This document shows, in pieces, positions 8,013-58,525 of a stretch of 64,000 bases of DNA (positions are counted from its first letter, which is position 1; each line of letters opens with the position of its first letter). The notes beneath the pieces are model-generated. The model saw nothing but the letters and a program-made list of their open reading frames with translations, was not told where the DNA came from and did not search any database. This stretch comes from Ktedonobacterales bacterium (GTDB lineage: Bacteria > Chloroflexota > Ktedonobacteria > Ktedonobacterales > DATBGS01), in NCBI GenBank assembly GCA_036557285.1, contig DATBHW010000018.1, positions 1 through 64,000 on the forward strand. Reading direction: 5' to 3'. A program made the translations under genes and the position numbers.

Positions 8013-8044
8013 GAGACGCTGCCCTCTTAATGATACTGACGCCA

Positions 8045-8077
8045 CTTGTAGCGCCGCCTGGAAGGCGGCGCTACAAG
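8045..8077. repeat. Dispersed palindromic repeat, compact hairpin copy
   Basis: A 33-base copy in which CTTGTAGCGCCGCC and GGCGGCGCTACAAG are separated by only five bases, giving a very stable hairpin. It lies between the DinB gene and the molybdenum-subunit gene in the operon. Confidence 0.85.
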
Positions 8078-32010: not shown

Positions 32011-33036
32011 CTAAGGCAGGTAAGCGTTGCTATAGGCTTTGCTCACATCAGGCGAGCCGCTGAGCAGCCCATAGGCTGGCATAAAGCTCGCCATCGCCTG
32101 CCAGGTCTTCGGATCATTATAGCCAGCTCTGGTTCCGCTGCTTTCCCAGAGGGGCAGGGTCGCTTGCAGCACCGCCAGCGCAGTAGCCGCGTTCTTTGGA
32201 TCGCTCAGCCCTGGCACTTGCTTCTTGCTTATATCAAGCGCCTGCTGAGGATGCGCAACAGTATACTCCACCCCACGCAGCGTCGCCGCCACCAGCGCTT
32301 TGATGTCGTCGCCATGCGCATCAAGCTCGCTCTGTAACGCGCCCAGCCCATTCGACACCAGCGGCAACTGCGAAACCACATCCGCCAGCGACAGCGTGCG
32401 CACCGCAAAGTTCGCCTGCTGGAAATGGATTGGCTCATTATTGACATAGCCCATCACAGCATCCACTTTATGCCCTAGCAGCGCCGCCTGCTGAGTAAAG
32501 CCGATATTCTGAATGGTCACATCAGACTTGCTCAGCCCGGCGCTTTGCAGCAGCGCCAGCAAACCAAAATACGTCTCGCCGTATGGCCCAGGCGTACCAA
32601 TCGTGTGACCGCGCAAATCCGCCGCCGTCTGAATCGGCGAATCCGCAGGCACAATCAGCGCCACCGGATATTTGGCATAGACGTTTGCCACGTAAACGAG
32701 CGGTATGTTATGGTCGCGCGCCTGAAGCATCTCATCGCCGCCGCCAAAAACAGCGTCCTCTTTGCCGGTAGAAACGGCGCCAAACTCATCCTCTGCAAAC
32801 GCATGATGGCGCAGCGTCACACTTAGCCCGGCATCCTTGTAGTAGCCAAGCGAATCAGCCACATAGAAAGGCGCGAACTGGATGTCGGGAATATAGGTCA
32901 GGCCAACCGTCAGATGATGCGGCGGTCCGCTTGCGCCCGTCGGGCCACAGGCCGCGAAAAACGTCAGCGCCAGCGAAGCCAGCAGCAGCACTCCGGCTGC
33001 GCGCAGCCGGAGTCGAAACACAGAAATATGACGCAT
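32011..33036 (-). CDS. ribY: RibY-like riboflavin-binding lipoprotein of an ABC transporter
   Basis: The 341-residue protein has a lipoprotein signal (FFAAC) and the NMT1/THI5-like binding-protein fold, with LTVGLTYIPDIQFAPFYVADSLGYY near the start and IGTPGPYGETY. NMT1-like proteins often carry thiamine precursors, but this gene and its permease lie behind an FMN riboswitch. In Chloroflexota that arrangement marks the RibXY riboflavin transporter. It is the second gene of the pair, 9 bp after ribX. No ATPase gene is present in the operon. Confidence 0.85.
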   Translation of the reverse strand: MRHISVFRLRLRAAGVLLLASLALTFFAACGPTGASGPPHHLTVGLTYIPDIQFAPFYVADSLGYYKDAGLSVTLRHHAFAEDEFGAVSTGKEDAVFGGGDEMLQARDHNIPLVYVANVYAKYPVALIVPADSPIQTAADLRGHTIGTPGPYGETYFGLLALLQSAGLSKSDVTIQNIGFTQQAALLGHKVDAVMGYVNNEPIHFQQANFAVRTLSLADVVSQLPLVSNGLGALQSELDAHGDDIKALVAATLRGVEYTVAHPQQALDISKKQVPGLSDPKNAATALAVLQATLPLWESSGTRAGYNDPKTWQAMASFMPAYGLLSGSPDVSKAYSNAYLP

Positions 33037-33045
33037 AAAACGTTA

Positions 33046-33960
33046 TCAAGCCTCCACATATGAAAGCCGACGCTCCAGCAGCCGCGCCAGCCCATAGAGC
33101 AGGGCGGCCAGCAGCGCCAGCGTCAGCAGCGTTGCAAAAACTCCGGCAGGATCAGCATAACTGCGCTCAACGAGCAACAACTCTCCAAGCCCCGGCGTGC
33201 CAAGGACGAATTCGCCAACCACCGCGCCGGTAATCGAGAGCGTCAGACTGGTGCGCACCCCGGCAAGAATACTGGGCAAGGCCAGGGGAAACTCGATATA
33301 CCGCAGCAGCGCCCACCAGCCAGCGCCTTCGGTGCGCGCGGCGTCAAGCACATCGCGGTCCAGCAGGCGTAGCCCCAGCACCGTCGTAATCACCATCGGG
33401 AAGAACACGATCAGCGCGCACAACGCTATTACAGGCGAGAGACCATAGCCCATCCAGAGCGCAATCAGCGGCGCAATAGCGATGGCTGGCATCGCCTGGC
33501 TTGCCGCCAGATAAGGCTGGATCGCGCTCGCCGCCAGGCGGCTATGCACAATGGCATAGCCCAGCGGCAGCGCCACCAGAGCGCCGAGCGCGCAACCGCC
33601 CAGGCTCTCGATCAACGTTGTCTGCGCGTAGCTCAGCAAGGAATCGCTGGTCAGCAAACCCCACAACGAACGCAGCACATCCGCTGGCAGAGGCAGGAAG
33701 AACGCCGACACCATGCCAGTCTGCACGACAACCTGCCACGCGATCAGCAGCGCAATGCCCAGCAGAACCGGCGCGAGAATACCCAGGCTTCGACTGTCGC
33801 GCAAGCGGCGCAAGCGGCGCGAGCGGCTGGTGAAGCGCCTTTCGTTGGTCAGCGATGTGAGAGGCGAGGGAGATACATCCGCCGGACGAGCCGCCTGGCG
33901 TCCCGGCGGGCCAAGCGCGTCAGCAGGCGGTTTGGGGGGTGAAATAGACCTGATACCCAT
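33046..33960 (-). CDS. ribX: RibX-like ABC transporter permease
   Basis: The 304-residue protein has a charged N-terminal stretch, about six membrane segments and the ABC permease EAA loop ARTEGAGWWALLRYIEFPLA. It belongs to the SsuC/ThiX-like permease family. The FMN riboswitch directly upstream and the RibY-like partner support riboflavin uptake. The ATG is preceded by GAGGAGG, which is the part of the leader that can be hidden by a hairpin. An ATP-binding subunit must be encoded elsewhere or shared. Confidence 0.85.
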   Translation of the reverse strand: MGIRSISPPKPPADALGPPGRQAARPADVSPSPLTSLTNERRFTSRSRRLRRLRDSRSLGILAPVLLGIALLIAWQVVVQTGMVSAFFLPLPADVLRSLWGLLTSDSLLSYAQTTLIESLGGCALGALVALPLGYAIVHSRLAASAIQPYLAASQAMPAIAIAPLIALWMGYGLSPVIALCALIVFFPMVITTVLGLRLLDRDVLDAARTEGAGWWALLRYIEFPLALPSILAGVRTSLTLSITGAVVGEFVLGTPGLGELLLVERSYADPAGVFATLLTLALLAALLYGLARLLERRLSYVEA

Positions 33961-34240
33961 TGCAAGCCTCCTCGGAGTATCCGGCTGAGGAGGCGCATAA
34001 AGAAAACCGCCTCAGCCGACATTACCGACCTGGGGCGGCACGCAGGAGAACACGCCAGCGCACAGCCCTGATACGGGCGTGCGCTCACGATTCGACCTTC
34101 TCCCATCCAGACTGTAACTGTCGGCTCCGGCCTCACACCGGATCTGCCACGCAGAAGCGCGGCTCGCGGGCTTGGCGTCAGCCATCTGAGCGGACGCCAT
34201 ACCGCCGGTCGGGGATTTCACCCTGCCCCGAAGGTCACGT
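33961..34240 (-). promoter_or_regulatory. FMN riboswitch with expression platform
   Basis: On the minus strand about 34236-34093 matches the FMN (RFN) aptamer: GGGGCAGGGTGAAATCCCCG, CCGGCGGT, AAGCCCGCGAG, GGCCGGAGCCGACAGT and GATGGGAGAAGGTC, closed by pairing of GACCTT with AAGGTC. Downstream, GAGGAGG (33973-33967), the ribX ribosome-binding site, can pair with CCTCCTC (33993-33987). That same strand can instead pair through CCTCAGCCG (33990-33982) with CGGCTGAGG (34018-34010). The two hairpins exclude each other, as expected for translational control by FMN. Confidence 0.93.
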
Positions 34241-34301
34241 TATCTGCCAGAGACCGCAGACAGCGCAGATTGTGGCTGTTGCTGTGGCCCTCTGCTCTAT
34301 A

Positions 34302-34331
34302 ACCATACCTCTTGCCTGCAAAGTTTGTCAA
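34302..34331 (-). promoter_or_regulatory. Promoter of the FMN riboswitch-ribXY transcript
   Basis: On the minus strand a perfect -35 box TTGACA (34331-34326) is followed after 18 bp by TATGGT (34307-34302). Transcription would start near 34295, about 60 bases before the aptamer. Confidence 0.65.
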
Positions 34332-34491
34332 GAGTAGCCGCGCAAAGCAAGGGACTTGACAGGCTTGATAAGCTATAACAGGTGTATAGGGGCGTAGAAA
34401 GTTATCTCTCGATGGAACGACCGATCATACCCCTTTTCAGGATTCTTGCATAGTGCAGCCCTACAGCAGGTTCTGCCAAAAAGCGGGGCCA

Positions 34492-34601
34492 CTTGTAGCG
34501 CCGCCGTCCCGGCGGCCAGCGTTGGCCTGCTGGCGCCGTGGCCCGGAGGGCGAACGCTCGCCCTGGCGCAGCGTCCAGCCGCCGGGACGGCGGCGCTACA
34601 G
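34492..34601. repeat. Dispersed palindromic repeat, long copy
   Basis: A 110-bp element whose arms CTTGTAGCGCCGCCGTCCCG and its complement are inverted at the two ends, with a palindromic GC-rich centre. It is the longest copy of the family in the window and lies between the ribX leader and the methyltransferase gene. Confidence 0.8.
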
Positions 34602-34662
34602 GTGGCAGCCCCCGATAATTGGTGGAACCCTACAGCAGTCAAGGGAGGGAGAGGAAAGGGTC

Positions 34663-35712
34663 ATGAAATGGTTCAGGCGGGGTAATCAAGACGCTGGGGA
34701 TGACAACAACGCGCAAGGCCCCCATACCAATGCCAGAGATTCAGAAGGGCGCGAGTTCTTCTTGCCTGGCGGAGTCGCCGATGAGTCGGTGAATTCGGAA
34801 GGGCGCGGCTTTTTTATCCTGGGCGGCTCTCCGAAAACTGGCAAGTTTCACCACGTCACCGTTGATGAAGAGGGGCATGCCTTTATCGAAGTCGGGGGCC
34901 GTCGCCTGATGGCGGATATTCCCGATATTCTGCCAAAAGACGAGCAAGAGATCAACCGCCTCGACTTCCAACACTTTTTGCTCCATCATGCCCTGGGCGC
35001 TAATTACGCGGCGCCCATTACCCAACCGGGCAGCATTCTGGACGTGGGCTGTGGCACCGGGCGCTGGGCTATTGAATTAGCAAGACAATTTCCCAGAGCC
35101 AATGTCATTGGCCTTGATATTGTTCCTCCTGATACGCTTACTGGGTCTGCCGCAGAATACTTACCAGATAACTATCTATTCACGCCTGGCAACCTTCTTG
35201 ACGGTTTGCCGTTTGCCACTGCCAGTTTTGATGTTGTACATATGCGCCTGCTGTTCATGGCAATCCCGGCAAATCGCTGGTCTTTTGCTGTTCGTGAACT
35301 GGTACGTGTCACTCGTCCTGGCGGCTGGATCGAATTAGTAGAAGGTGATCTGCCCAAAAATGGCGGCCCGGCGCTGGAAGCCCTGTCGCGCTGGGCAAAC
35401 GAAGGGAGCCAACATCGCGGCATTGATCTGCATCTTGGCGCGCAGATCGGCAAATTCCTCTACGACGCCAGGGCGCGGAACATAGTAACGCAAGACATCA
35501 AATTTCCCGTAGGCCGCTATGGCGGACGCATCGGCCAGATGACCTCCGTTGATGCCATAGCCATGATCGAGAGCCTGCGGGCGCTGGTGGTCATGCAAGG
35601 CATCGCCACTCCTAAACAGTATGATCAGGCGCTCGCCAGCGCCCGCAGTTACATCTCGCTCAGCCAGGCGCAGTGCTTCCTCCCATTCTACCTCGCCTAT
35701 GGGCAACGCTAA
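34663..35712 (+). CDS. SAM-dependent methyltransferase with N-terminal triple repeat
   Basis: The 349-residue protein has a class I methyltransferase core: ILDVGCGTGRWAIELAR, NVIGLDIVPP, and ASFDVVHMRLLFMAI followed by RVTRPGGWIEL. Before it, residues 26-79 hold three short related units, SEGREFFLPGG, SEGRGFFILGG and EEGHAFIEVGG. The ATG at 34663 follows GAGAGGAAAGGG; the longer frame would translate the palindromic repeat. Substrate is unknown. It converges with the MFS gene. Confidence 0.85.
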   Translation: MKWFRRGNQDAGDDNNAQGPHTNARDSEGREFFLPGGVADESVNSEGRGFFILGGSPKTGKFHHVTVDEEGHAFIEVGGRRLMADIPDILPKDEQEINRLDFQHFLLHHALGANYAAPITQPGSILDVGCGTGRWAIELARQFPRANVIGLDIVPPDTLTGSAAEYLPDNYLFTPGNLLDGLPFATASFDVVHMRLLFMAIPANRWSFAVRELVRVTRPGGWIELVEGDLPKNGGPALEALSRWANEGSQHRGIDLHLGAQIGKFLYDARARNIVTQDIKFPVGRYGGRIGQMTSVDAIAMIESLRALVVMQGIATPKQYDQALASARSYISLSQAQCFLPFYLAYGQR

Positions 35713-35817
35713 CTATGCTGCACAGGCGAAAACCCCGCATACCTGTAGGGCATCCAGGGTTCTCACCTGTATTTCACAGCCTCGACGACTCAGCCCCGAT
35801 GAACGCTACATGCGCCA

Positions 35818-37296
35818 TTACGGAGAGACAATATCCAACCGCTTGCCACGAGTATCAATGCCAAATTGGGCGATCAGGGCTGCGACAACCAGGAACGCGC
35901 TAATCAACAGGAACGATTGCATGGCACCAAGCCCTGGAATGAGGGGCGCAATAATCAGCAACCCCACACTGCCGCCAAGATGTCCGATGCCGTCCACCAA
36001 TCCAAAGCCGGTAGTCCGCGCGCGGGTTGGATAATTCTCGGTTGACCAGGAATAGGTCATCGGAACCCAGATGTTAAAGCCAAAAAACACGATCATCGCG
36101 CCGATAAAGGCCATAACCGGGGCCGCAGTTGGCGAGGACGCCGAGAATTGGCCCGCTGCGGCAACCAGCACACCACCAAGCACCGTGAGAACTGCGGCAA
36201 TGGGCAGCCAGAGTTTCCGCTCCAGGCGCTCGCTAAAGAAGTAGGCAAAGACAGCGGAGATGACAAATCCGATGACCCCCACAGCCACAATCAGGCCGGC
36301 TTCAGGCGGCGGATAGTGCAACGACGCCAGGATCGTGGTAAAGCCAGCGCCAAACGAGTAGACCGTCACGTAGCCGATGAACCAGACCAGGAACAAGAGG
36401 ATGGTGCGCCGCAGGTAGAGCGCGTTGCTAAAGATCTGGGTATAGGGGATACCTTTTATCTGTGGTGGCGTTGGCAACTCATCCATTGCCTTGGGCAGCG
36501 GGTTCCGTTGGGACGCGCGGGCTTCCATTCGTCGAACGACGGCATCGGCGTCTTCAATGCGTCCCTGCGAAATCAGCCAGCGCGGCGACTCAGGAAGCTG
36601 GAACCGCAGCAGCACACCAATCAACGCCAGTGCGCCGCCAATACCGTACATGATGCGCCACCCCGGCCCCTGGAACGCCTCGCCTGCCAGGGCAAAAGAG
36701 AGGCCCAGCGGAAATGATTCTGGAGGAGTCGTCAGAAGCAGCCCAAGCCAGACCGCAACCAATGCCCCCAACGACGACATAATGAAAATCAGCGAGGTAT
36801 ACCTGGCCCGTCCATAGCGGGGGGCCACCTCATTGATATAGGTGTTGACAATCGCCAGGTCAGCGCCGATACCAATGCCGGTCAGCGTGCGCGCAACGAT
36901 GAACATCGTATAATCGTTCACGAACGCGGTAAACACAGAACCAATGCCAGTCAGAAGCATCGTCACAAGCAGCATATCTCGTCGTCCGAAGCGATCTGCC
37001 AGCGGGCTGAGAATGAGCGCCCCCACAACATAGCCAATAAGATTCCACAGGACCGGCAAGCCCAGCTTATCTGACGCCACAACAGAGCCTGGCGGCCCAC
37101 CCGGCACGCAATTGGGTACGATCTGCACACAGGTCTGGATGAAAGACACGTTGATGTCGAAGATGTCATAGAACGTGAATAGGAAACCAAGACCAATGAC
37201 GATGACGAATAGGTAGGGAAGCGACCAGACCTGAATCCGATCCTGGCGCGCGATCACTGCGCCAGCACTGACTGTTCTGGATAGATTCGATGACAT
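35818..37296 (-). CDS. MFS transporter, sugar/organic-acid porter type
   Basis: The 492-residue protein has 12 predicted membrane spans and MFS signatures: ADRFGRRDMLL between spans 2 and 3, LTGIGIGADLAIVNTYINE, and LPESPRWLISQGR before the central loop. This pattern is shared by sugar porters and by aromatic or organic acid symporters. The ATG at 37296 has GAGGGGAAG upstream; the longer frame is not needed. Substrate cannot be assigned. An XRE-TPR regulator gene lies just upstream on the same strand. Confidence 0.87.
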   Translation of the reverse strand: MSSNLSRTVSAGAVIARQDRIQVWSLPYLFVIVIGLGFLFTFYDIFDINVSFIQTCVQIVPNCVPGGPPGSVVASDKLGLPVLWNLIGYVVGALILSPLADRFGRRDMLLVTMLLTGIGSVFTAFVNDYTMFIVARTLTGIGIGADLAIVNTYINEVAPRYGRARYTSLIFIMSSLGALVAVWLGLLLTTPPESFPLGLSFALAGEAFQGPGWRIMYGIGGALALIGVLLRFQLPESPRWLISQGRIEDADAVVRRMEARASQRNPLPKAMDELPTPPQIKGIPYTQIFSNALYLRRTILLFLVWFIGYVTVYSFGAGFTTILASLHYPPPEAGLIVAVGVIGFVISAVFAYFFSERLERKLWLPIAAVLTVLGGVLVAAAGQFSASSPTAAPVMAFIGAMIVFFGFNIWVPMTYSWSTENYPTRARTTGFGLVDGIGHLGGSVGLLIIAPLIPGLGAMQSFLLISAFLVVAALIAQFGIDTRGKRLDIVSP

Positions 37297-45773: not shown

Positions 45774-47062
45774 CTGAAAATTATCGCGGGGGATTGCGCT
45801 GGTGGAGGATCAAATAGAGCGCGTGGCGCGGGTGGAAGGCCAGATAGCGCCGAGTCGCAGCAATCTGGGTAGAGCCAGTCCGATGAATTAGCGTAATCGC
45901 CAGGTTGCGTAAGCTTGCCATCACCTGCGGGGCATTGCCCGTGCGCAGTTGCGAGCGATCTTCGCCAAAGGTCACATCACGCACATAATGCAAGCCGTTC
46001 TCAATGTGCCAATGGCCTCGGATGAGGTCCAGCAAGCGCTGCGGGGGAGCTTGAGCAGGGGTGAGGCTGGTGATAAGGTAGACCACCTCCTGGCGGGTCT
46101 GCCCTTGCTTGGTCACGCAGCGGGTGAGTTGGGCCACTTGGGCCACATAAGGCCAGGTGGCAGCCAGATAGGTCGTCATTTCGGTGCTGACTTTGATGCG
46201 GCGCACTTCGATACGCCCCCGATGGCAGTCCCAGGTTTCGGCCTGCTGGTAACAGGCAGCGGAATCGGCGAAATAGGTGATCAGGTCGGCCAACAGACTG
46301 GGCTGATTCTCCTTGACCGTCAGCACGGTTTCTGCCTGCGCCTCATGGAGCACCCGCATCAAGGCGACCTGGGTATGCAGCGCATCGGCCGTGCATACCC
46401 GCCCGCGCAGCGGCAAGGTCGGCAGGAGGGTTTGGGCGACGGGAATCTCGTTCGTTTTCTCCTCCACCCGCACCTGGAGGAGCGTTTCATGACTGCGGTA
46501 CGTGCAAAAGCTGAGCAGATGCGGGGCAGCCTGGGTGCTGGTACGAGCGCCGCGCAGCGTCTTACCATCCAGGGCCACTGGCTCATTCGGATCAGCTACC
46601 AACGTGGCTTGCACCCAGGCTGCCAGCACCTGCTCCAAGGCGAGGGCATTCAGTTGGGGGAACAGCCAGCGATAGAGTGCTCCGGTAGGGGTGACAAACC
46701 GACGCGAGCCAAAGAGGCGGCGCAGGAGCCGAGGCTCCGCACGACACCACTGGCCCACTGCTTCACTATGGGTGCAATTGCACAACAGCGCGGCCACAAA
46801 GCAGGTGAGCAAGAACGGCAAGTCATAGCGCCGTCCATGACGAGAGCGGGGATCAGGGACGGCGGCAAACGCATCATGCAAACTGAGCAGGGCGGCATCG
46901 TAGAGTAGGTCGTGGCGTTGCGAGTCCGTCAAGGGAGGCAAGGTCACAGGCAGTACCGTAGAATACATAGCGAGAGGCTCCTTGCGGCTGAGATGAAATG
47001 TGGTAATTCCATCCTAGCAGCCTCTGGAGCCTCTCGCTCTCAGCAATCATTTTCAAGCCCTG
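45768..47062 (-). mobile_element. ISAs1-family insertion sequence, apparently complete
   Basis: The ends are imperfect inverted repeats: TAGGGTCTGAAAATTAT from 45768 and, on the other strand from 47062, CAGGGCTTGAAAATGAT. They enclose one full transposase gene. Length (about 1.3 kb) and end sequence fit ISAs1. I could not find a target-site duplication; the left flank is itself the end of a MITE. Confidence 0.8.
45781..46968 (-). CDS. ISAs1-family DDE transposase
   Basis: The 395-residue protein has an N-terminal DDE_Tnp_1-associated region (DAFAAVPDPRSRHGRRYDLPFLL) and a catalytic core with Asp in ALDGKTLRGA, Asp in CTADALHTQ and Glu in HWHIENGLHYVRDVTFGED. Length and motifs are those of intact ISAs1/H-repeat transposases. 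No frameshift or stop is seen, so it may be active. Confidence 0.93.
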   Translation of the reverse strand: MYSTVLPVTLPPLTDSQRHDLLYDAALLSLHDAFAAVPDPRSRHGRRYDLPFLLTCFVAALLCNCTHSEAVGQWCRAEPRLLRRLFGSRRFVTPTGALYRWLFPQLNALALEQVLAAWVQATLVADPNEPVALDGKTLRGARTSTQAAPHLLSFCTYRSHETLLQVRVEEKTNEIPVAQTLLPTLPLRGRVCTADALHTQVALMRVLHEAQAETVLTVKENQPSLLADLITYFADSAACYQQAETWDCHRGRIEVRRIKVSTEMTTYLAATWPYVAQVAQLTRCVTKQGQTRQEVVYLITSLTPAQAPPQRLLDLIRGHWHIENGLHYVRDVTFGEDRSQLRTGNAPQVMASLRNLAITLIHRTGSTQIAATRRYLAFHPRHALYLILHQRNPPR

Positions 47063-48890: not shown

Positions 48891-48919
48891 TAGACAAGTT
48901 TAACTTATCATGGTATGAT
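48891..48919 (+). promoter_or_regulatory. Promoter of the ComX-like gene
   Basis: TAGACA (48891-48896) and TATGAT (48914-48919) are separated by 17 bp, a good sigma-70-type pair. It lies about 108 bp before the ComX-like start codon, so the peptide gene has its own promoter apart from the cell-wall genes upstream. Confidence 0.65.
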
Positions 48920-49026
48920 TGGTTGGGAAACGTGGCGCGCGTCCCCTGCACATCATGCTGGAGCGCGGCGCCGCACAGGAGTGAGCCTCTGGCTCCGCTT
49001 GCATTGAGACTGATAAGGAGAGTCGA

Positions 49027-49254
49027 ATGGACAACAAGAAACACGGATTGAGCTATGGCGTGCGGCAAGTGGTAGACCGGCTGTTTAGGGACGAAACCTT
49101 TAAGGAAGACGCGCTGGCAAATCCAGAACTGGCCTTTGCCAACTACAGCCTCGATGAAGAAGAGCGTCAAGCGATCAAGGGGCTGCTCGGCAATATGCGC
49201 CGCCGCAACTCGCTGTTCACAACGGAAGCCGAAGCTTTTAGCCAATGGTTCTAA
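49027..49254 (+). CDS. ComX-like prenyl-peptide pheromone precursor (candidate)
   Basis: The 75-residue protein has a helical amino part (YGVRQVVDRLFRDETFKEDA), a turn with NPELAFANYSLDEEERQAI and a basic then acidic tail ending FSQWF, with Trp74 next to last. Bacillus ComX precursors are of similar size, are poorly conserved and are prenylated on a Trp close to the C-terminus by ComQ. A strong AAGGAG lies upstream and a promoter at 48891-48919. The next genes encode an isoprenyl-transferase-like and a ComP-like protein. A ribosomally made peptide of another class is the main alternative. Confidence 0.6.
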   Translation: MDNKKHGLSYGVRQVVDRLFRDETFKEDALANPELAFANYSLDEEERQAIKGLLGNMRRRNSLFTTEAEAFSQWF

Positions 49255-49300
49255 GCAGAACGATTCTGTTGAGGTGGCAATAAAGCAAGTTGTAAGGGCT

Positions 49301-49332
49301 GGGCCGTCAGGGGAATCTTACCCTGACGGCCC
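49301..49332 (+). terminator. Attenuator-like hairpin after the ComX-like gene
   Basis: GGGCCGTCAGGG (49301-49312) pairs perfectly with CCCTGACGGCCC (49321-49332) across an 8-base loop. It lies between the peptide gene and the prenyltransferase gene. The stem is followed by AATTT rather than a long T run, so it may stop only part of the transcripts or protect the peptide mRNA. Confidence 0.65.
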
Positions 49333-49373
49333 AATTTCACTCTACAACAGTTTAGGAATAGGGAAGAAAAAGC

Positions 49374-50432
49374 ATGGCAGTTTCTCATATCACAGGGCTG
49401 CTGAGTGAACTTCCTACCCGTCTTCTGTTCAGTGATCAATTACAAGCGGTTGGACGGCTGATGCTCTCCGAGATACGCGCCAGACATTTTCCTCCTGGCT
49501 TCGCGCGCCGGATAACAGAGGCTCTCCGCGAACCTGGCAAGCTGCTTGGCCGCCCCGTCATGCAGGGAGAGCCGCTGGATGCCCGTGATCTGCGCGGGTG
49601 GGGGTTGCCCGTGTTACTCACCGCCGCTGCCGCCTCTGGCGCGCAAAGCTCCTCGCTCGCTCGCCTTCCTCCATCGTTCTGGAGACGAGCGCGTGCTGCG
49701 GCAGCCGCCTCTGAGTTCCTGGGCGCAGCCCTGGATATCATTGACGATGTGCAGGATGGCGACAGCGCCTTTGTTCAACGGCTAGGCATGCCCCTGGCCT
49801 TGAACACAGGGATCGCGCTTCTGGAGCTTGTCCCCATTGCGCTCAATCGGGCGCGGTCTACAGAGTGGTCCGATGCCCAGATGCATGCCGCACTGGAGAC
49901 GCTTCATGCCAGCATCCTCACCAGCCTGGGCGGGCAATACCTGGACTTGCGCTTTGAGCAGATGAGCGCCGTCAATGAAACTCAGGTCATGGAGATGACC
50001 GAGAAAAAATCGGGAACCTTGCTGGCCCTCATCTGCCGACTGGGGGCAATGGCGGGGGCGACGTATCGGCAAGAGAGGCCATTCTCCTATTTCGAGACAG
50101 TGAGCCTGTTTGGCTGGCATTTGGGGGTATGGTTCCAGCTTCTTAATGATCTGCACGATGCCGAAGAAGCACAGACGCAGGCTGCAAAAAGTGACCGTCA
50201 GCGACAGAAAAAAACGCTGCCCCTGGTACTTGAACAGCGCGGTATGATAGAGGGCACAGACAGAGGAAAACAGGATCGGTCACTGGATGCTCAGACAGCA
50301 TTGTCCTATACCTACGCTGTTGCCGAAACCTTTCGTTTACGCGCCCAGAACGCTCTCCAGGCGCTGGAGGAGCAATTTGGGCCGCATCCGCTCCTCTGGC
50401 CGTTAACGCTCCCGACCTGGGAAGGGTCTTAA
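49374..50432 (+). CDS. ComQ-like isoprenyl diphosphate synthase homologue
   Basis: The 352-residue protein has the trans-prenyltransferase fold pattern. The first metal motif is DDVQD (124-128); the second is NDLHD (258-262), with Asn in place of the first Asp, and a KKTLPLVLEQR segment follows. KKSGTLLALICRLGAM fits the pyrophosphate-binding lysine region. ComQ, the enzyme that attaches a prenyl group to ComX, belongs to this superfamily. The gene follows a small Trp-ending peptide gene and precedes a ComP-like kinase by 35 bp. An ordinary prenyl diphosphate synthase is the alternative, but no isoprenoid gene is nearby. Confidence 0.78.
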   Translation: MAVSHITGLLSELPTRLLFSDQLQAVGRLMLSEIRARHFPPGFARRITEALREPGKLLGRPVMQGEPLDARDLRGWGLPVLLTAAAASGAQSSSLARLPPSFWRRARAAAAASEFLGAALDIIDDVQDGDSAFVQRLGMPLALNTGIALLELVPIALNRARSTEWSDAQMHAALETLHASILTSLGGQYLDLRFEQMSAVNETQVMEMTEKKSGTLLALICRLGAMAGATYRQERPFSYFETVSLFGWHLGVWFQLLNDLHDAEEAQTQAAKSDRQRQKKTLPLVLEQRGMIEGTDRGKQDRSLDAQTALSYTYAVAETFRLRAQNALQALEEQFGPHPLLWPLTLPTWEGS

Positions 50433-50467
50433 TTGACCGATACCACCATCAAGCACAGGAGGCGCCG

Positions 50468-53263
50468 ATGCGTGATAGCCAAGATGTTCAGTATACCCTT
50501 GCCCAACCCCGCCGCCAGCATCCAACAGCGCATGTACGAGCGCGCCGCACCCTGTTTATCCTTCTGGCGGTTCTGCTCTATCTCCCGGCAGTAACTGTCA
50601 GCATCATGGCCCTAATTAGCAGCAATCACTGGTGGGGCCTCGGTGCCCAGCCCATGAATAACGCATCAGGAGCCTGGCAAATCACCTGGAGTGATCGTGG
50701 ATTATCGAGTGACTTCAACATCCAGGCTGGCGACCAGATTCTGGCGGCAGACGGCCAGCCCCCCCAAAATGAGAACCAGATCAACCAGACAAGCGAGCTA
50801 ACTATCTTCTCGCCAGGAGACGCGAAAGCCCATACCGTCCGATGGTCAGCCCCCGACCAGCTTGCTACCCTCCTCTCGCTCAGTTGGTTCGTCCTGGGGC
50901 TGGTTTCACTCTTGCTGGGTCTACTCGTGTTCCTGCACGCCACAGATCGGGTGTTGGCGCTCCGTTTCTTTCTGCTGTGGACCGCTCTGGCGCTCGCCAG
51001 TTCTTTAGTGCCAGCGGCATCCTTCGGAAATCTGCTGGCAGTGCATATCTCTGGCATCGTCTATGCTGGGCTGGCTCCCGGGCTGCTGGCAACCTTCCTC
51101 TGGCGCTTGCTGTTTCCAAGTCCGGCGGCGCGTCCCATCTCCAACAGCAATCGGCCCCTCACTTCAGGAAGAGGAGGGCGGCGCTCAAGATACCGCTGGC
51201 TGCCAGAGATCCCGGTCGTGATTGGCCTGATCTCTATTACCCCCTATCTCGTTGCCATCACTCTGAAAGAGCCAGATGTGCTTGAGCGGGCAGTAGTGCT
51301 CGGCTCTGCCCAAACCGTACTTGCGCTCAGTTTATCTTTGTATTTGATTATGCGAGCGGCCATATCCCATCGGGTGGGAGTAACACGCGAGCGGGCGCGT
51401 ACCCTGCTCGTCGGCATGCTGCTTGGGCTGTTACCACCATTGGCCTTGACTATTATTCCCCAAGTTATCACCCGCCAGCAGCTAGTGCCGGGCACAGTCA
51501 GCGATCTGGCTATTATCGTCCTGCCGTTCTCGTTTGCCTATGCCATTGTGCGCCGCGAACTGCTGCGGCTCGATTCGCTCATTCGCAATACCGCTGTATT
51601 CCTGCTCACCTTCATCGGCATGGGCATTGTTGCTATCTTGCTGGCTGAAGCACTGAGAGTGCTGCCCCCTACGCCAGCCCTGGTGATCGGCATCATCACC
51701 GGAGCCGTACTCGCGCCCTTTATCCTGGCCGCTGCGCGCTGGATCACCGAAGCGTGGCTCTTCCCACAAGTGCGCCGCTACCGGCGGCTCATCGCTCAGG
51801 GCGAAACCATTGAGCGCACCGGCCTGGACCCGCAGCGCATCGTCGGCCAACTGATCGGCGAAGTCCATCTGGCCCTGCCTGTCAGGCAAGTCGCTGTGTT
51901 TGTGCCTGACAAAACCACCGGGCACCTGCTAGAAATCTCCGTTCCGCACGCGAGCGCACGAACCGGCGAACCGAGCACCGCCTCACCATCGCCCGGAAGC
52001 GCCGTCGCGCTCGCGCCCTCTCCGCAGACGCCACAACCGCCCAGCGCCCTCTTCGTTGATGAGAGCCTCTCCGTCCGGCTCGCCAGGGAGGGCGGCCCCC
52101 TCCTGGTGGAGCCTGCGCCAACAAGCACGCGGGCTGGCGAATCCCCCCAGGCGCACGCGCACCAGGGCAACACATCATCTTCCATCACCGGAGCCATCCA
52201 GACCGAACTCGCGCCGCCGGACCTGGATAGCTGGCATTTGCTGACGCCCATGCGCGTGCGCGGGCGGCTGGTCGGCCTGCTCGCGCTCTCTCGACGCGAG
52301 GACGACCAGATGTACTCCGACACCGACCTGCGTTTGCTGCGCTTTCTGGCCGGACGCCGCGCGCTGGCGCTGGATTACGCGCTGCTCTATGCCGACCTGC
52401 ATACTGCCTATGAGCGCCGACAAGAACTGGATCACCTGAAAGATCGATTCATCGTCACCGCCCACCACGAACTACGCACCCCGCTCACCGGCGTGCAGGG
52501 GTATCTGGAGCTTCTGCGCGACCTGGGATCAGAAGGGCGCGCCTTGCGCCCCCAAGAAGTCGAGTTGTTCATCGAACGCGCCTGCGAACAAACCGAAGTG
52601 CTGCATGAGCAACTCAACAGCTTACTCGTCGCTGCCGAAACCAATCTCACCCAGGAACAACTGAAGCCTCGGCCAGTAGAACTATACACTGTCGCCCAGC
52701 GAACCATTCAATCTATGGAGGCTCTGGCCCAGCGCGGCCACCATCGGATTCGCAACCAGATACCACTCGACCTCATTGCCATTGGCGACGAAGAAGCCCT
52801 CTACCGCATTTTTCTGAACCTGCTCTCCAATGCCCTGAAATACAGCCCCGAAGGTCGCCCGATCCTCTTTGATGGGCGCACCCGTCTCATTCAAGCGCCC
52901 TATCCCTCAGGAACCAGCGGGCCAATCCACACCAACCGCTATCCCGCTGGCGCAGCGCCCGTAGCCGAAATGATCGTGCGTGATTGGGGCGTTGGCATCG
53001 CCAAAAGCGACCAGGATAAAATCTTCGAGCGCTTCACCCGCCTCGAACGCGACCTCAACAGTCCTGTGCGCGGCAGCGGCCTGGGTCTGGCGATCTGCAA
53101 AGAATTGATTGAAGCCATGAGCGGAACCATCTGGGTTGAAAGTGACGGGATTCCCGGATCAGGAAGCGCCTTTTTTGTGCAGCTTCCCCTGGCCGAAACG
53201 CCGGTTACGAGCAAGCTCTTCGCTGGATGGGAAGATGCGCCTGGTAATATCACATCCTGCTGA
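50468..53263 (+). CDS. ComP-like multi-pass sensor histidine kinase
   Basis: The 931-residue protein has a membrane segment at 28-50, an outside PDZ-like domain at about 70-127 (IQAGDQILAADGQ at 85-97), then about nine more membrane segments to residue 425. A GAF-like region with a Pro/Ser-rich insert follows (about 440-640), then HisKA with His667 in AHHELRTPL and an HATPase with NLLSNALKYSP, DWGVGI and GSGLGLAICKE. Bacillus ComP has the same unusual order of one span, PDZ-like loop and many spans. Its kinase core is of a different type. AGGAGG precedes the ATG. No response regulator gene follows. Confidence 0.85.
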   Translation: MRDSQDVQYTLAQPRRQHPTAHVRARRTLFILLAVLLYLPAVTVSIMALISSNHWWGLGAQPMNNASGAWQITWSDRGLSSDFNIQAGDQILAADGQPPQNENQINQTSELTIFSPGDAKAHTVRWSAPDQLATLLSLSWFVLGLVSLLLGLLVFLHATDRVLALRFFLLWTALALASSLVPAASFGNLLAVHISGIVYAGLAPGLLATFLWRLLFPSPAARPISNSNRPLTSGRGGRRSRYRWLPEIPVVIGLISITPYLVAITLKEPDVLERAVVLGSAQTVLALSLSLYLIMRAAISHRVGVTRERARTLLVGMLLGLLPPLALTIIPQVITRQQLVPGTVSDLAIIVLPFSFAYAIVRRELLRLDSLIRNTAVFLLTFIGMGIVAILLAEALRVLPPTPALVIGIITGAVLAPFILAAARWITEAWLFPQVRRYRRLIAQGETIERTGLDPQRIVGQLIGEVHLALPVRQVAVFVPDKTTGHLLEISVPHASARTGEPSTASPSPGSAVALAPSPQTPQPPSALFVDESLSVRLAREGGPLLVEPAPTSTRAGESPQAHAHQGNTSSSITGAIQTELAPPDLDSWHLLTPMRVRGRLVGLLALSRREDDQMYSDTDLRLLRFLAGRRALALDYALLYADLHTAYERRQELDHLKDRFIVTAHHELRTPLTGVQGYLELLRDLGSEGRALRPQEVELFIERACEQTEVLHEQLNSLLVAAETNLTQEQLKPRPVELYTVAQRTIQSMEALAQRGHHRIRNQIPLDLIAIGDEEALYRIFLNLLSNALKYSPEGRPILFDGRTRLIQAPYPSGTSGPIHTNRYPAGAAPVAEMIVRDWGVGIAKSDQDKIFERFTRLERDLNSPVRGSGLGLAICKELIEAMSGTIWVESDGIPGSGSAFFVQLPLAETPVTSKLFAGWEDAPGNITSC

Positions 53264-53347: not shown

Positions 53348-53851
53348 CTATCCATCATCCGACCAGACCCACCCCTGCTCCTTGAAAAACGCCTCAGCAA
53401 CTCCGCCGGGTTCATAAAAGTACGCGACACTCAGCAGCAGCAAATAGGCTTGCTCCACTTCCTTGCTTGTCATACCCACCAGATGCCAGCGATCACGATA
53501 CTCTTCCAGCGTATCCCGCAGGCAAATCCCTGCCCGATAGAAAGACCGCCACCACTCGCGCTCCAGCACAACCGATGGGATGGTTTCGTACTGGCGTGCC
53601 AGTTCCCGACAGCGCGCCACCACGCCTCGGATGTGTTCCGCTGTCGGCTGCTTATCCAGGTGGGCCGGAGGTTTGCTCGGCGCTTGAGTTTCCAAAAGCA
53701 GCGAGGCATGGGGCAGCGCGTTGAGGGAAGCCTTGTTTTGCTGTGTCTTCACCACTGAGGCGTCTCCTCCTACCGCCAATAGCTGGCTGGCGTTCATGAG
53801 AGCAAAAAAGCGCCTTATCCGCGATACACGGCTGCTTGTGTCGTGAATCAT
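53348..53851 (-). CDS. Hypothetical protein
   Basis: This 167-residue soluble protein was not recognised. Its C-terminal half is helical and aromatic (LEREWWRSFYRAGICLRDTLEEYRD in order, then EVEQAYLLLLSVAYFYEPGG). GGGAGGTAAG precedes the ATG, which supports a real gene. It lies between the ComP-like kinase (convergent) and the APC permease on the same strand. Confidence 0.65.
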   Translation of the reverse strand: MIHDTSSRVSRIRRFFALMNASQLLAVGGDASVVKTQQNKASLNALPHASLLLETQAPSKPPAHLDKQPTAEHIRGVVARCRELARQYETIPSVVLEREWWRSFYRAGICLRDTLEEYRDRWHLVGMTSKEVEQAYLLLLSVAYFYEPGGVAEAFFKEQGWVWSDDG

Positions 53852-53899: not shown

Positions 53900-55846
53900 T
53901 TAAGTCACCCCAACAGCGGCTATCGGCCAGTTCTTGATGTAATGCGTGACCTGGCCCCCAGGCCCCCCGCTGTGCCGCACCAGATCAGGAGCGAGGAGCA
54001 TACCTTGAAGGTGTTCCTGGGGGCCAAAAATCGTATCGCGCGGGCGCAGCAGTTGCCAGTAATGGAAGACCGCATCGGGCGTCGGCAGCGCGTAGACCGC
54101 GCAATGGCGAACCCGCTGCTGACGCGCGATCTGTTCTGCCTCGGAAAAAGCCTGCCTGGCCTCTTCATCGTTGAGATAGGGGTCAGCATTCTCGAATAAC
54201 TCAGGCCGTCGCTTGCTGACCGGCGAACCCCGATACAGGAAGATCACCTCACCCTCCTGCCCTTCACGGCAGGCGGCGCGGATTACAGCCTCGCGCCCCT
54301 CAGTGGTGGTGGGCAGCACCGCCAGGGTCGAGCCAGGAACAGCCCCGTAGACCTGAATGGGAAAGACCATCCACTTGCCCCGTTTCGCCAGATAGCGCGC
54401 TGTCGTATACGCTGTCACCAGACCAACCACCGTAACAGCGCCGCCGAACGCGGTTGCCGGGGGCTTGAACACCAGATTCGTACCCCAGGCAATCATCACC
54501 AGTATCGTCGTAAGAATGCCCAACGCAAAAAGCCAGAGCGGCACAGGGGCCATAGATGATTGACCAGGCAGCGGAAGCTCCACCAATTCTCCCACCGTAG
54601 CATCAGCACCGTTGCCTGAGCGCACTTGTTTGAGCAGAACTTGCCGCTCGCGGTGATGGCGCCAATCGCGCCAGCGAGCCACGTCAATGCCCAGGCACGT
54701 TAAACTGAAAGCGCCCAACAGGCCAAAGGCATACATATCGCCCAGTAAAGCAATATCCCCGCGAACAAGCAGCAGAATTACGACAGGAATCCCGGTCGCC
54801 AGCACAATCGCATACTGTGGTGTGCCGCGCCAGGCGTTGCGTCGCTGCACCGCTGGCGGTAAAAAGTGCATCCGCGACAAAGCCAGCAACACATGGTAAC
54901 AGCCAATAATCGCGGTGTTGCTCGCAAAAATCAGCAGGGCCGAGGCGCTGATAGCCACCTCAATGCCCAGCAGCTTGCCCCCATAGGTACTGCCCAGCAA
55001 AGAAATAAACTGATTGGGGTTCGCCTGGCTCGCATCCAGCAGCGTCGTGGCAAACAACGTCAGCAGCGGACTCGTCACACCCACCGTCAGCACCACCACC
55101 AGCAAGGCGCGCCGACTGGTACGCTTGCGCGGAGTCTTCATCACAGGCGAAATCTGAGAAATGCTCTCCAACCCGGAAAAGGCCAGAAAAGAGCCTGCAA
55201 AGCCCGTCATCAGCGCGAGCGGCGTCAGAGGTCGGCCCTCAAACATCTCTGGAACGAGATGAAGCAGGGTAGACAGAGGAACATGGAGGACGACCTGAAT
55301 CAGAATAGCAATATCACTGGTGAAGGCGATCACAGCGCCAACCGCGCTGACGGCGGCGCTCTCACTTACCCCCCACCAGTTCAGCAGACCCAGCAAAACC
55401 AGAACGACCACTGTGATCACTACGAGAACCGAGAGATCATGCACCGGGACTACCACGCTCAAATAGGTCAACCCGGATAACGCGCTAATCGCAGCAGTTA
55501 AAAAATAATCCCCCAACTCCAGCATCCCACCGAGAGCGCCTGTCCAGGGCTTGAAGTTGCTGGCGGCAACGGTAACGACACCTCCACCCTGGGGATAGCG
55601 CGCGGTCACTTCTGCGTACTTCAGGGTCAGCAAGATGAACACAATCATCGTGAGCAAGACAAAGAACCCCGCCAGATTGCCCACCTGCCCATACAGAATG
55701 CCAGGAACGTAATAGACCGAGGTTCCGATGTCGGCAAACACCACCGCCCAGCATAAGAAGAAACCTAACCGACCACGCTGATGTTCCTCTGAGCCAGCAG
55801 TACTCGTAGAAGGTTCAACTGCGCGTTCTGACGTCTGCATCAACAT
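53900..55846 (-). CDS. APC-superfamily permease with C-terminal soluble domain
   Basis: The protein, about 648 residues, has 12 membrane spans in the first 480 residues, with FADIGTSVYYVPGILYGQVG and YPQGGGVVTVAASNF in the N-terminal part, followed by a cytoplasmic domain of about 160 residues. Amino-acid transporters and KimA-type potassium carriers share this layout. A KdpDE-like regulator pair lies upstream on the same strand, which hints at ion transport, but this is only context. The start may be ATG at 55846 or, better spaced from AGGAG, ATG at 55840. Confidence 0.85.
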   Translation of the reverse strand: MLMQTSERAVEPSTSTAGSEEHQRGRLGFFLCWAVVFADIGTSVYYVPGILYGQVGNLAGFFVLLTMIVFILLTLKYAEVTARYPQGGGVVTVAASNFKPWTGALGGMLELGDYFLTAAISALSGLTYLSVVVPVHDLSVLVVITVVVLVLLGLLNWWGVSESAAVSAVGAVIAFTSDIAILIQVVLHVPLSTLLHLVPEMFEGRPLTPLALMTGFAGSFLAFSGLESISQISPVMKTPRKRTSRRALLVVVLTVGVTSPLLTLFATTLLDASQANPNQFISLLGSTYGGKLLGIEVAISASALLIFASNTAIIGCYHVLLALSRMHFLPPAVQRRNAWRGTPQYAIVLATGIPVVILLLVRGDIALLGDMYAFGLLGAFSLTCLGIDVARWRDWRHHRERQVLLKQVRSGNGADATVGELVELPLPGQSSMAPVPLWLFALGILTTILVMIAWGTNLVFKPPATAFGGAVTVVGLVTAYTTARYLAKRGKWMVFPIQVYGAVPGSTLAVLPTTTEGREAVIRAACREGQEGEVIFLYRGSPVSKRRPELFENADPYLNDEEARQAFSEAEQIARQQRVRHCAVYALPTPDAVFHYWQLLRPRDTIFGPQEHLQGMLLAPDLVRHSGGPGGQVTHYIKNWPIAAVGVT

Positions 55847-56001
55847 GCTCCTTGCCACTCACCATTCAGATAGAAAGGATGAAGTTGACATAAAAATCAG
55901 CGTTCTCTGCGTAAAGGTATTATAAAGATTTTGCGGAAAAATATAAAGAGCTTATATGCAGAAGGGCAAAGGGGCAACACACAAGCTCACAAATGGGGGT
56001 A

Positions 56002-56031
56002 TCTCCAGCGCGCTAATCAGCGCGCTGGAGA
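56002..56031 (-). terminator. 13-bp hairpin at the end of the response regulator gene
   Basis: TCTCCAGCGCGCT (56002-56014) pairs perfectly with AGCGCGCTGGAGA (56019-56031) around a 4-base loop. The stop codon of the response regulator lies within the hairpin. No clear T run follows, so it may act as a weak terminator or mRNA end structure. Confidence 0.6.
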
Positions 56032-56807
56032 CGGTAGCCGATGCCGGGGTCCGTCAGGAGGTAACGGGGTCGGCTGGGGTCCGGTTCAATCTTGCGCCGC
56101 AGTTGGCCGATAAAGATGCGCAAATAATGCGCGTTCTGCTCGTACTGTGGCCCCCATACCGCGCGCAGCAAGGTGCGATGAGTGACCACTTTGCCCGCGT
56201 TCAGCGCCAGATATTTGAGTACTTCATACTGGGTGTGGGTCAAATGCACAACCACGCCATCTACCGTCAGTTGGCGGCGCTCAAAATCAATGACCAGTTC
56301 TCCAGTGCGGAAAAGCGCCTTGTCGGTGGCCTGGCCCGTAGCCTGGGCGCTATGCCGGAAGGCGACGCGAATGCGCGCCAGTAGTTCCCCCATACTGAAC
56401 GGCTTGGTCAGATAATCATCTGCTCCCAGTTCAAGCGCCGTAATTTTATCTTGATCGCTGGCCCGAACGGACAACACAATGATAGGCGTCGCTGACCACT
56501 GCCGTAATTGGCGCAGCACTTCCAGCCCATCCATATCCGGCAGGAACAGATCGAGAATGACCACATCGGGATGCCAGCGGCTCACAAGCTCCAGACCCTG
56601 CGAGCCAGTTGGCGCCCATTCCACCACCAGCGCCGCCCCGGCCAGCCCAGCCTGGATCGCGCGGCGAATCTCCGGCTCATCGTCAATCACCAGCACCCGC
56701 CCACCACCTGAGCCACGTCCAGACGAAGGCGCCTCTGACTTCGGGTCTGCCCTTTCTTCGGGAGCCTGTTCGGCGGGATGATCTCTGTATGATGGCTCCT
56801 GTGTCAT
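56013..56807 (-). CDS. KdpE-like response regulator
   Basis: The 264-residue protein has a receiver domain with Asp42-Asp43, phosphorylation site Asp86 in VVILDLFLPDMDG and Lys135 in YLTKPF, then an OmpR/PhoB winged helix ending THTQYEVLKYLALNAGKVV in order and GIGYRLQRAD. A charged 35-residue extension precedes the receiver. Its ATG overlaps the stop of the kinase gene, so the two form a pair. The closest family is KdpE, but no kdpFABC genes are visible. Confidence 0.92.
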   Translation of the reverse strand: MTQEPSYRDHPAEQAPEERADPKSEAPSSGRGSGGGRVLVIDDEPEIRRAIQAGLAGAALVVEWAPTGSQGLELVSRWHPDVVILDLFLPDMDGLEVLRQLRQWSATPIIVLSVRASDQDKITALELGADDYLTKPFSMGELLARIRVAFRHSAQATGQATDKALFRTGELVIDFERRQLTVDGVVVHLTHTQYEVLKYLALNAGKVVTHRTLLRAVWGPQYEQNAHYLRIFIGQLRRKIEPDPSRPRYLLTDPGIGYRLQRAD

Positions 56808-58525
56808 TGGCTGGCTCCAGTTAGCGCCTCCTCGGCAGGCTCATCAAGTTCAGGCAATACCCCTTCCGGGCCGTCAGCGGGAATCGGCAAGGTGAAATGG
56901 AACGTTGAACCCTTCCCCGGACAACTTTCAGCCCAGATGCGCCCATGATGCGCTCGTATAATACTGCTGCAAATAGCTAACCCAAGCCCGGCGCCAGGTG
57001 AAGGAGAGTTGGTCGCCCAGGGTATGGACGCCTGCGGCGCTCGATAGAACTTCTCAAAAATCGCCTCAAGCTCGCTCGCCGGAATACCAATACCCTCATC
57101 GCAGACAGCAACCTCCAGTTCAGGTGGGCTGCCTACTACGCTCGCTCGTACCTGAATAACGCTGTCGGGGGGCGAGTATTTCAGCGCATTTTCTATGAGA
57201 TTAGTCAGCACCCGCTCGATCTGTCCGTGATCCAGCGGAACCAACGGAATAGTTTCAGGAATATCTACCACTATGCGCCGATTGCGCAGCGGCCCCGCCA
57301 GATCAAGCTGCTCAAGTACCGGAGCAATAAGATCACCGATGAAGTGCCAATCACACGCTGGCTCAGCAGCGCCAGCCTCCAGGCGCGAGAGATCAAGCAG
57401 ATTCCTCACCAGATGGCTCAGCCGGTCAACGCTGGTATCAATCGCATAGATGAGTTCGCCGCGTTGTTCCTCATGCCAGATCATGCCTGGCTCCAGCAAG
57501 CTGCTGGTTGCGGCCTTGATAGCCGCCAGAGGCGTGCGCAGGTCATGCGTCACCGCATCAAGCAGCGCCTGTTTCAATCGGTCACTCTCGCGCAGCGCCT
57601 CCGTATGAATCGCCGCCTGGCGCAGCGCAACCTGTTCCAGAGCCAGCGCGATTTGCCCGCAAAAAGCCGCGAAAAACCTCGCTTCCGGCTCCACTGCTCT
57701 TTCTAATGGCGCCTGGGAGCTACCCTCCAGAGCAGGGCCGCTTACTCGAGGTACCAGACGACGCAGATCGGGTGTACCCGCGATACCGAGCGCGCCCACC
57801 ACGCTCTGCGCGCTCGAAAGCGGCACGTAGAGAATTATATCGCCTCTTCGCTTGCTCTGCTCCTCTGTACCAGCGGGCAGATCAGCAGGCGCGCCATACC
57901 GCAAAACCCGCTCAACCAGGGCTGTTTGCTCAGATTCTTCCAGACGGAATACATCCATTACCCGCTTCTTGGATGGAGCCGCCGCTCGTACCTGGGGACG
58001 ACTCTGCGCATCGGGTAAGACCAGTATGCAGGCGGATACTCCGCTACCTGCAAAGGACTGGACGACCTGCTGCGCCAGCGTTTGCAAGAGCGTTTCTTGA
58101 TCGGGGGTAGAGGCGATCAACTGCGCTAGTTGATAGAGCCGCGCCGTCTGCTGCTGACTGGCACGCGCCGCATCTGCATGCGCCTGGACAGTGGCAGTGA
58201 GATGGCCGATGACCAACGCCGTTGCCAGCAGCGCGAATAACGAGATCCATTCTGCCTGATCGTTTGTAACCAACTTACCAGTGGGTGGAACGAAGAAGAA
58301 ATCATAGGACAGGAACGCCAGAATGGAGGCCAGGATAGCCGGGCCGCGACCAAAGAAGACCGCAAGCCACAGCACGACCAGCAGATACGCCATCGAGAGG
58401 TTTTCGACATGAACCACCGTCTTGACCAGCCCGATACAGAGGGTGGTCAGTGCTGCGCCCAATATCGCAGCCCCATAGCCTATCATCAGGCGCAGGACAC
58501 GCCCGGAAACCGGCAAACGTTTCAC
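56804..58525 (-). CDS. KdpD-like sensor kinase lacking the N-terminal KdpD domain
   Basis: The 573-residue protein starts with the four-span DUF4118 membrane unit of KdpD, including YLLVVLWLAVFFGRGPAILASI and FFFVPPTGKLVTND, then a GAF-like region, HisKA with His327 in AVTHDLRTPLAA, and an HATPase with NLIENALKYSP and GAGLGLAICSS. Full KdpD has about 380 more N-terminal residues (KdpD and UspA domains) that sense potassium and c-di-AMP; they are absent here. It is co-translated with the response regulator. Confidence 0.92.
   Translation of the reverse strand: MKRLPVSGRVLRLMIGYGAAILGAALTTLCIGLVKTVVHVENLSMAYLLVVLWLAVFFGRGPAILASILAFLSYDFFFVPPTGKLVTNDQAEWISLFALLATALVIGHLTATVQAHADAARASQQQTARLYQLAQLIASTPDQETLLQTLAQQVVQSFAGSGVSACILVLPDAQSRPQVRAAAPSKKRVMDVFRLEESEQTALVERVLRYGAPADLPAGTEEQSKRRGDIILYVPLSSAQSVVGALGIAGTPDLRRLVPRVSGPALEGSSQAPLERAVEPEARFFAAFCGQIALALEQVALRQAAIHTEALRESDRLKQALLDAVTHDLRTPLAAIKAATSSLLEPGMIWHEEQRGELIYAIDTSVDRLSHLVRNLLDLSRLEAGAAEPACDWHFIGDLIAPVLEQLDLAGPLRNRRIVVDIPETIPLVPLDHGQIERVLTNLIENALKYSPPDSVIQVRASVVGSPPELEVAVCDEGIGIPASELEAIFEKFYRAPQASIPWATNSPSPGAGLGLAICSSIIRAHHGRIWAESCPGKGSTFHFTLPIPADGPEGVLPELDEPAEEALTGASQ

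Follow-up and report, generated by a model that had tools for sequence, protein, structure and literature searches.

Loci resembling comQXPA were found only in Firmicutes in a 2014 census (PMC4008528), and a 2022 study mentions only a kinase-regulator pair for Chloroflexi (PMC8895600). The receptor ComP has ten membrane spans and a PDZ domain in its first loop (PMC9620489). Trp is prenylated both by ComQ and by PalQ, which are trans-IDS-like enzymes (PMC10853753, PMC13290415), and PalQ of Paenibacillus alvei prenylates Trp at C3 in vitro, accepting only a terminal Trp with no extension (PMC10853753).

Here we analyzed a stretch of 64,000 nucleotides from a Ktedonobacterales bacterium of the Chloroflexota (the window), in which an earlier note had proposed a ComX-ComQ-ComP-like signaling cassette. 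The three ORFs on which that proposal was built were recovered as described, all on the + strand, in the order peptide, enzyme, kinase (X-Q-P), and with short gaps of 119 nt (peptide-enzyme) and 35 nt (enzyme-kinase). Judged from its sequence, the trio probably encodes a secreted prenyl-peptide signal and a receptor that share descent with Bacillus comQXP. According to the published census (PMC4008528), a comQXP-like trio outside Firmicutes is new.

The window trio and its surroundings

The features of the trio are listed below, with the evidence for each in brackets.

48891-48919, + strand: promoter-like TAGACA-17-TATGAT with TG ahead of the -10 (consensus match only)
49015-49020, + strand: ribosome-binding site AAGGAG, 6 nt 5' of the peptide ATG (sequence)
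49027-49254, + strand: precursor peptide gene (X), 75 aa (leader-profile match and invariant W74)
49060-49185, + strand: NHLP/Os1348-like leader, aa 12-53 (NF038399, E=3.5e-8)
49246-49248, + strand: codon of Trp74 (sequence)
49300-49333, + strand: 13-bp perfect hairpin without a T run, between X and Q (z=-4.2)
49374-50432, + strand: ComQ-like prenyltransferase gene (Q), 352 aa (PF00348, ComQ-type motifs, tree, model)
49743-49763, + strand: first Asp-rich motif DDVQDGD, aa 124-130, with no RRxRP after it (sequence, motif comparison)
50136-50159, + strand: pseudo second motif QLLNDLHD, aa 255-262 (sequence, motif comparison)
50468-53263, + strand: ComP-like receptor histidine kinase gene (P), 931 aa (Pfam domains and receptor profile)
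50552-50608, + strand: first transmembrane span, aa 29-47 (hydropathy)
50633-50848, + strand: extracytoplasmic PDZ-like domain, aa 56-127 (Pfam in relatives, model)
50879-51733, + strand: nine-span membrane bundle, aa 138-422, ComP-homologous (hydropathy and profile)
51830-52375, + strand: GAF domain, aa 455-636 (Pfam)
52439-52627, + strand: HisKA domain with intact HHELRTP (Pfam and sequence)
52784-53194, + strand: HATPase_c domain, its N, G1 and G2 boxes intact (Pfam and sequence)

The promoter-like site lies ~107 nt upstream of the peptide gene, and such sites numbered two against 1.6 expected in shuffled sequences. The hairpin between X and Q is possibly an attenuator or a processing site, and it would fit a need for peptide in excess of enzyme. 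In the nearest relative, genome G041, the matching position holds a hairpin with T8 behind it.

No response regulator, protease or exporter adjoins the window trio, and the earlier remark that it has no adjacent ComA was correct. The nearest response regulator in the window (56013-56807) lies on the opposite strand and is paired with a DUF4118 (KdpD-like) histidine kinase; this pair, whose regulator is of the OmpR type, occupies 56013-58525 on the - strand. Other genes of the window include an amino acid permease with a long C-terminal extension (53900-55858, - strand), a 167-aa ORF beside it without a Pfam match (53348-53851), and a DDE transposase (DDE_Tnp_1 plus the associated N-terminal domain; 45781-46968, - strand).

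Precursor peptide and prenyltransferase-like enzyme

The 75-residue peptide ends in AFSQWF, in agreement with the Ser-Gln-Trp-Phe end reported earlier. Trp74 is thus the penultimate residue, within the last 5-10 residues where ComX-type precursors carry their Trp. The leader scored 33.4 bits against NF038399, below the curated cut-off of 40, as did that of the L028 peptide (37 bits), and NHLP-like leaders were also found in the peptides of several relatives. The window peptide did not match PF05952 (ComX), a weak test in which the B. subtilis control also stayed under the cut-off; with a similarly weak control, a Pfam ComX search of 400 genomes of the phylum gave nothing above the cut-off. When the profiles of the NHLP-like leaders and of ComX were compared, a common origin found no significant support (E=0.045, probability 1.2%). 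The proposed likeness to ComX-ComQ-ComP held for the enzyme (motifs and tree) and the receptor (profile), but not for the leader, which resembles NHLP/Os1348 leaders below the curated cut-off.

In an alignment of 17 divergent precursors, Trp (W74 in the window) was the sole invariant column. Because the aligned rows were partly picked for having Trp, a profile was built from the leaders only. Run against the small ORFs from every locus (n=4393), it gave 27 clear matches, each of which has Trp among its final nine residues. The matches include three divergent peptides absent from the profile (L105, L107, L154), and the window peptide was found at E=1.2e-9 with itself left out; one more weak match (E=0.003) was the end of an enzyme fragment. 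A looser test, which asked for a late Trp in any small ORF close by, gave 26 of 30 ComQ-type loci against 7 of 21 housekeeping loci (p=2e-4). Since many random small ORFs (12%) also carry a late Trp, this test is weak, and the leader-only profile was used in its stead.

NHLP leaders typically belong to precursors of natural products, and PalX has been reported as a natural product whose role is not known (PMC10853753). The peptide could accordingly be a modified antimicrobial or another secreted product, with a kinase that autoregulates its production as for nisin and with communication not as the main role. We regard this as improbable, because the cassettes read contain no recognizable exporter, protease or immunity gene and the unit consists of peptide, enzyme and receptor only, as in comQXP. 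Furthermore, the c-di-GMP enzymes that form the output of some receptors (see below) would not transcribe the operon directly.

The distance of Trp from the C-terminus varies, from the penultimate position in the window to ~12-13 residues before the end in the L086, L089 and L094 peptides, and because PalQ takes terminal Trp only, the specificity of the cassette enzymes must differ from that of PalQ. This variation leaves a small chance that the enzyme alters Trp otherwise (other prenyl length plus cyclization, or reverse prenylation) or has another target, the peptide being only a regulator. However, all characterized trans-IDS-like transferases act on Trp (PMC13290415), and no residue other than Trp is invariant in the 17 aligned peptides.

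The reading that we prefer is a signal peptide prenylated by a ComQ-like enzyme. The earlier identification of the enzyme as a prenyl-diphosphate-synthase homologue was confirmed (PF00348, E=3e-20), with Pfam and NCBIfam giving only the broad synthase family. As profile scores alone did not separate ComQ from housekeeping enzymes, this separation rests on motifs and a tree. The comparators were four plasmid-borne ComQ proteins (Anoxybacillus, Lysinibacillus, Priestia, B. velezensis) from real comQXPA or comQX loci found by tblastn of plasmids; B. subtilis 168 ComQ and ComP served solely to seed searches or for side comparisons, and conclusions were drawn from the real records.

The cassette enzymes retain DDxxD, have lost RRxRP, and carry QxxND in place of the housekeeping QxxDD, with Q255, N258 and D259 invariant across 12 of them. 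The second motif varies among real ComQ proteins as QIDND, QIKND, QLLND and QISGD. GKLLGRP of the window enzyme merely approximates the IPP-binding GKxxRP, and the enzyme does not show the motif set of housekeeping synthases (DDxxD...RRxRP, QxxDDxxD, GKxxRP). A maximum-likelihood tree of 58 enzymes, several of them with long branches or odd composition, was split by a 100/100 branch into a cassette side (30 cassette enzymes, the four ComQ and one Acaryochloris protein) and a housekeeping side (22 housekeeping enzymes together with a Streptomyces protein). The window enzyme thus stood apart from the housekeeping synthases; clustering with them would, according to the earlier note, have refuted the proposal. 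It was sister to the G041 enzyme (support 100/98), and the placement of ComQ among the cassette enzymes was weakly supported (92/68). The model of the enzyme (pLDDT 84.8) has the isoprenoid-synthase fold, and a scan of genome contigs with the window enzyme gave no match.

The Streptomyces and Acaryochloris tblastn matches were rejected as cassettes. The latter is a polyprenyl synthetase homologue on Acaryochloris marina plasmid pREC3 (L048:4833-5780) whose very long branch falls with ComQ in the tree; neither ComX nor a kinase is annotated alongside.

Profile searches of 400 genomes, sampled evenly across the phylum, together with the regions read, placed cassettes in ~30-35 genomes of at least 13 families. 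The earlier statement that no such system was known from the phylum fits the Firmicutes-only census, but the window trio is not a one-off, with ~30 of the 400 genomes carrying a cassette. The order of the trio recurs in G041 (enzyme identity 40%), and synteny, which would have spoken against the proposal had it persisted without Trp, was kept across relatives with Trp present. Of the 27 ComQ-type enzymes that are followed by 3 kb of sequence or more, 26 adjoin a receptor, against 0 of 20 housekeeping synthases (Fisher p=2e-12). In the sole exception, L081, a reverse-transcriptase-like ORF of the group II intron type follows after position 6002 in place of the receptor, and this cassette looks disrupted. 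Given the recurrence in G041, the receptor linkage and the Trp of the leader-profile matches, the arrangement of the trio exceeds chance. An ordinary isoprenyl diphosphate synthase beside a chance peptide ORF is a very unlikely alternative: the broad family assignment and the late-Trp ORFs near 7 of 21 housekeeping loci under the loose rule would allow it, but two housekeeping copies in the same genome have RRxRP-like and QxxDD motifs that the window enzyme lacks, and the receptor adjacency, the leader homology across loci and the tree separation also speak against it.

The gene order is Q-X-P in L093 and L152. In L149 (genome G186, 7225-8069), a peptide (...GPMGGWF) and a receptor are present with an enzyme ORF of only 214 aa, possibly reflecting a frameshift or a decaying cassette.

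The receptor module and its outputs

Hydropathy gave ten spans for the window kinase, one at aa 29-47 and nine at aa 138-422, with a loop of ~90 residues between them; its Pfam domains are GAF, HisKA and HATPase_c, and the phospho-acceptor is probably His667. This layout agrees with the order of ComP that had been noticed in this protein. A receptor profile made from the N-terminal halves of 12 relatives with no ComP included found Anoxybacillus ComP (E=2.3e-20) and, in a separate run (Z=5000), Priestia ComP (E=3.3e-21). No background ORF (n=379) matched the profile unless it belonged to the receptor family.

The PDZ-like outer loop, also claimed earlier, scored weakly in the window protein (PDZ_6, E=0.16), but the aligned region passed Pfam cut-offs in three relatives: L089 (28.8 bits against 27), L150 (41.8 against 27) and L091 (PDZ_2, 27.2 against 27; PDZ, 25.4 against 23.2). 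This region shows mixed strands and helices in the receptor model, and the loop was lost in relatives of the same order belonging to family f3 (L031, L033, L080). A fold search with the receptor model returned seven-span receptor shapes with a best E of 0.04 and was judged uninformative. Elsewhere in the window genome (L156, G000:C34, ~32200-36100), two ComP-type PDZ-multispan receptors of 485 and 749 aa stand in tandem, with neither a prenyltransferase nor a Trp peptide seen alongside.

The output attached to the sensor module differs between lineages. In the window and its order, the module is fused to HisKA kinases. L086 and L089 have a HisKA_3 kinase with a LuxR-type response regulator directly downstream, which gives the full four-gene comQXPA content, and a LuxR-type response regulator likewise follows the kinase in L094. 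Hybrid kinases with a receiver domain occur in small-genome lineages (L087, L088, L091, L101). In other loci, the module is joined to c-di-GMP enzymes: HD-GYP (L027, L034) and HD-GYP plus GGDEF (L028), all with intact catalytic motifs, and GGDEF plus EAL (L152). The genomes with such outputs are G270 and G194 (HD-GYP), G347 (HD-GYP+GGDEF) and G233 (GGDEF+EAL). A literature search on ComX with HD-GYP found no prenyl-peptide receptor with c-di-GMP enzymes, and we are not aware that one ending in them has been described.

Two further receptors have degenerate kinase parts, one with the His of the H-box replaced by Gln (L030:3417-6197) and one without a recognized kinase domain (L092:6163-8406), and pseudokinase signaling is possible for both.

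We lean toward the view that these loci form a phylum-wide prenyl-peptide class, in which a ComP-type sensor has interchangeable outputs, some of them placing c-di-GMP turnover in one protein without phosphotransfer, and of which the comQXPA of Firmicutes is one branch. These receptors may couple the sensing of a lipid-modified peptide directly to c-di-GMP. The presence of the trio across another phylum, in small and large genomes, makes the origin of prenyl-peptide signaling testable; the cassettes also provide dozens of new candidate Trp-prenyltransferases with differing core sequences and connect NHLP-type precursors with ComX-type signaling.

Proposed pathway and comparison with known systems

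Alongside the computed gene order, conserved Trp, enzyme relationship, motif changes, ComP homology and intact kinase motifs, we infer prenylation, cleavage, export, ligand binding, a partner regulator and density sensing, which would fit together as follows. The NHLP-like leader of the 75-aa precursor probably docks on the enzyme, while the short C-terminal core carries Trp74. Housekeeping synthases elsewhere in the genome would supply the prenyl diphosphate, which the ComQ-like enzyme would hold through its first Asp motif; chain elongation would be gone with the loss of the IPP-side motifs, and the prenyl group would be transferred to Trp74. The core would then be cut and exported by unlinked proteins, and the modified peptide sensed by the module of one span, PDZ and nine spans. 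The receptor is predicted to autophosphorylate on His667 and to pass the phosphate to an unlinked response regulator. The hairpin 3' of the peptide gene may hold enzyme and receptor below the peptide level.

Like Bacillus ComQ, with which it groups in the tree, the window enzyme keeps the first Asp motif, lacks RRxRP and has a QxxND pseudo second motif. The sensor module is homologous to that of ComP (one span, PDZ and 8-9 spans), and the peptide has its Trp near the C-terminus, like ComX. However, the window order is X-Q-P rather than Q-X-P, the leader is NHLP-like with no PF05952 match, and the kinase core is HisKA with GAF rather than HisKA_3, a difference that the earlier note had also pointed out. 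The window trio also has no adjacent ComA, whereas LuxR-type regulators adjoin in L086, L089 and L094.

The fold of the enzyme matches that of Ord1, a free-Trp farnesyltransferase (PDB 9v4g, E=7e-8), which also has a Gln before the second motif. However, the substrate of Ord1 is free Trp, and ordinary GGPP/FPP synthases fit the fold equally well or better. Similarity to NHLP/Os1348 precursors (NF038399) lies in the leader, under the curated 40 bits.

Compared by description, PalXQP (PMC10853753) is the closest known system in peptide type and gene content, sharing a precursor with a Trp near its C-terminal end and an apparently NHLP-type leader, a trans-IDS-like enzyme and a histidine kinase. 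It differs in that the window Trp is penultimate (...QWF) and not terminal as in PalX-type precursors, and in that PalXQP is described in the order kinase, peptide, enzyme rather than X-Q-P; a scan of genome contigs for the PalX core pattern gave no match. By sequence comparison, the cassette is related by descent to comQXP in its enzyme and sensor module; by analogy, it would work like comQXP and PalXQP, differing in leader, kinase class, gene order and, in other lineages, output.
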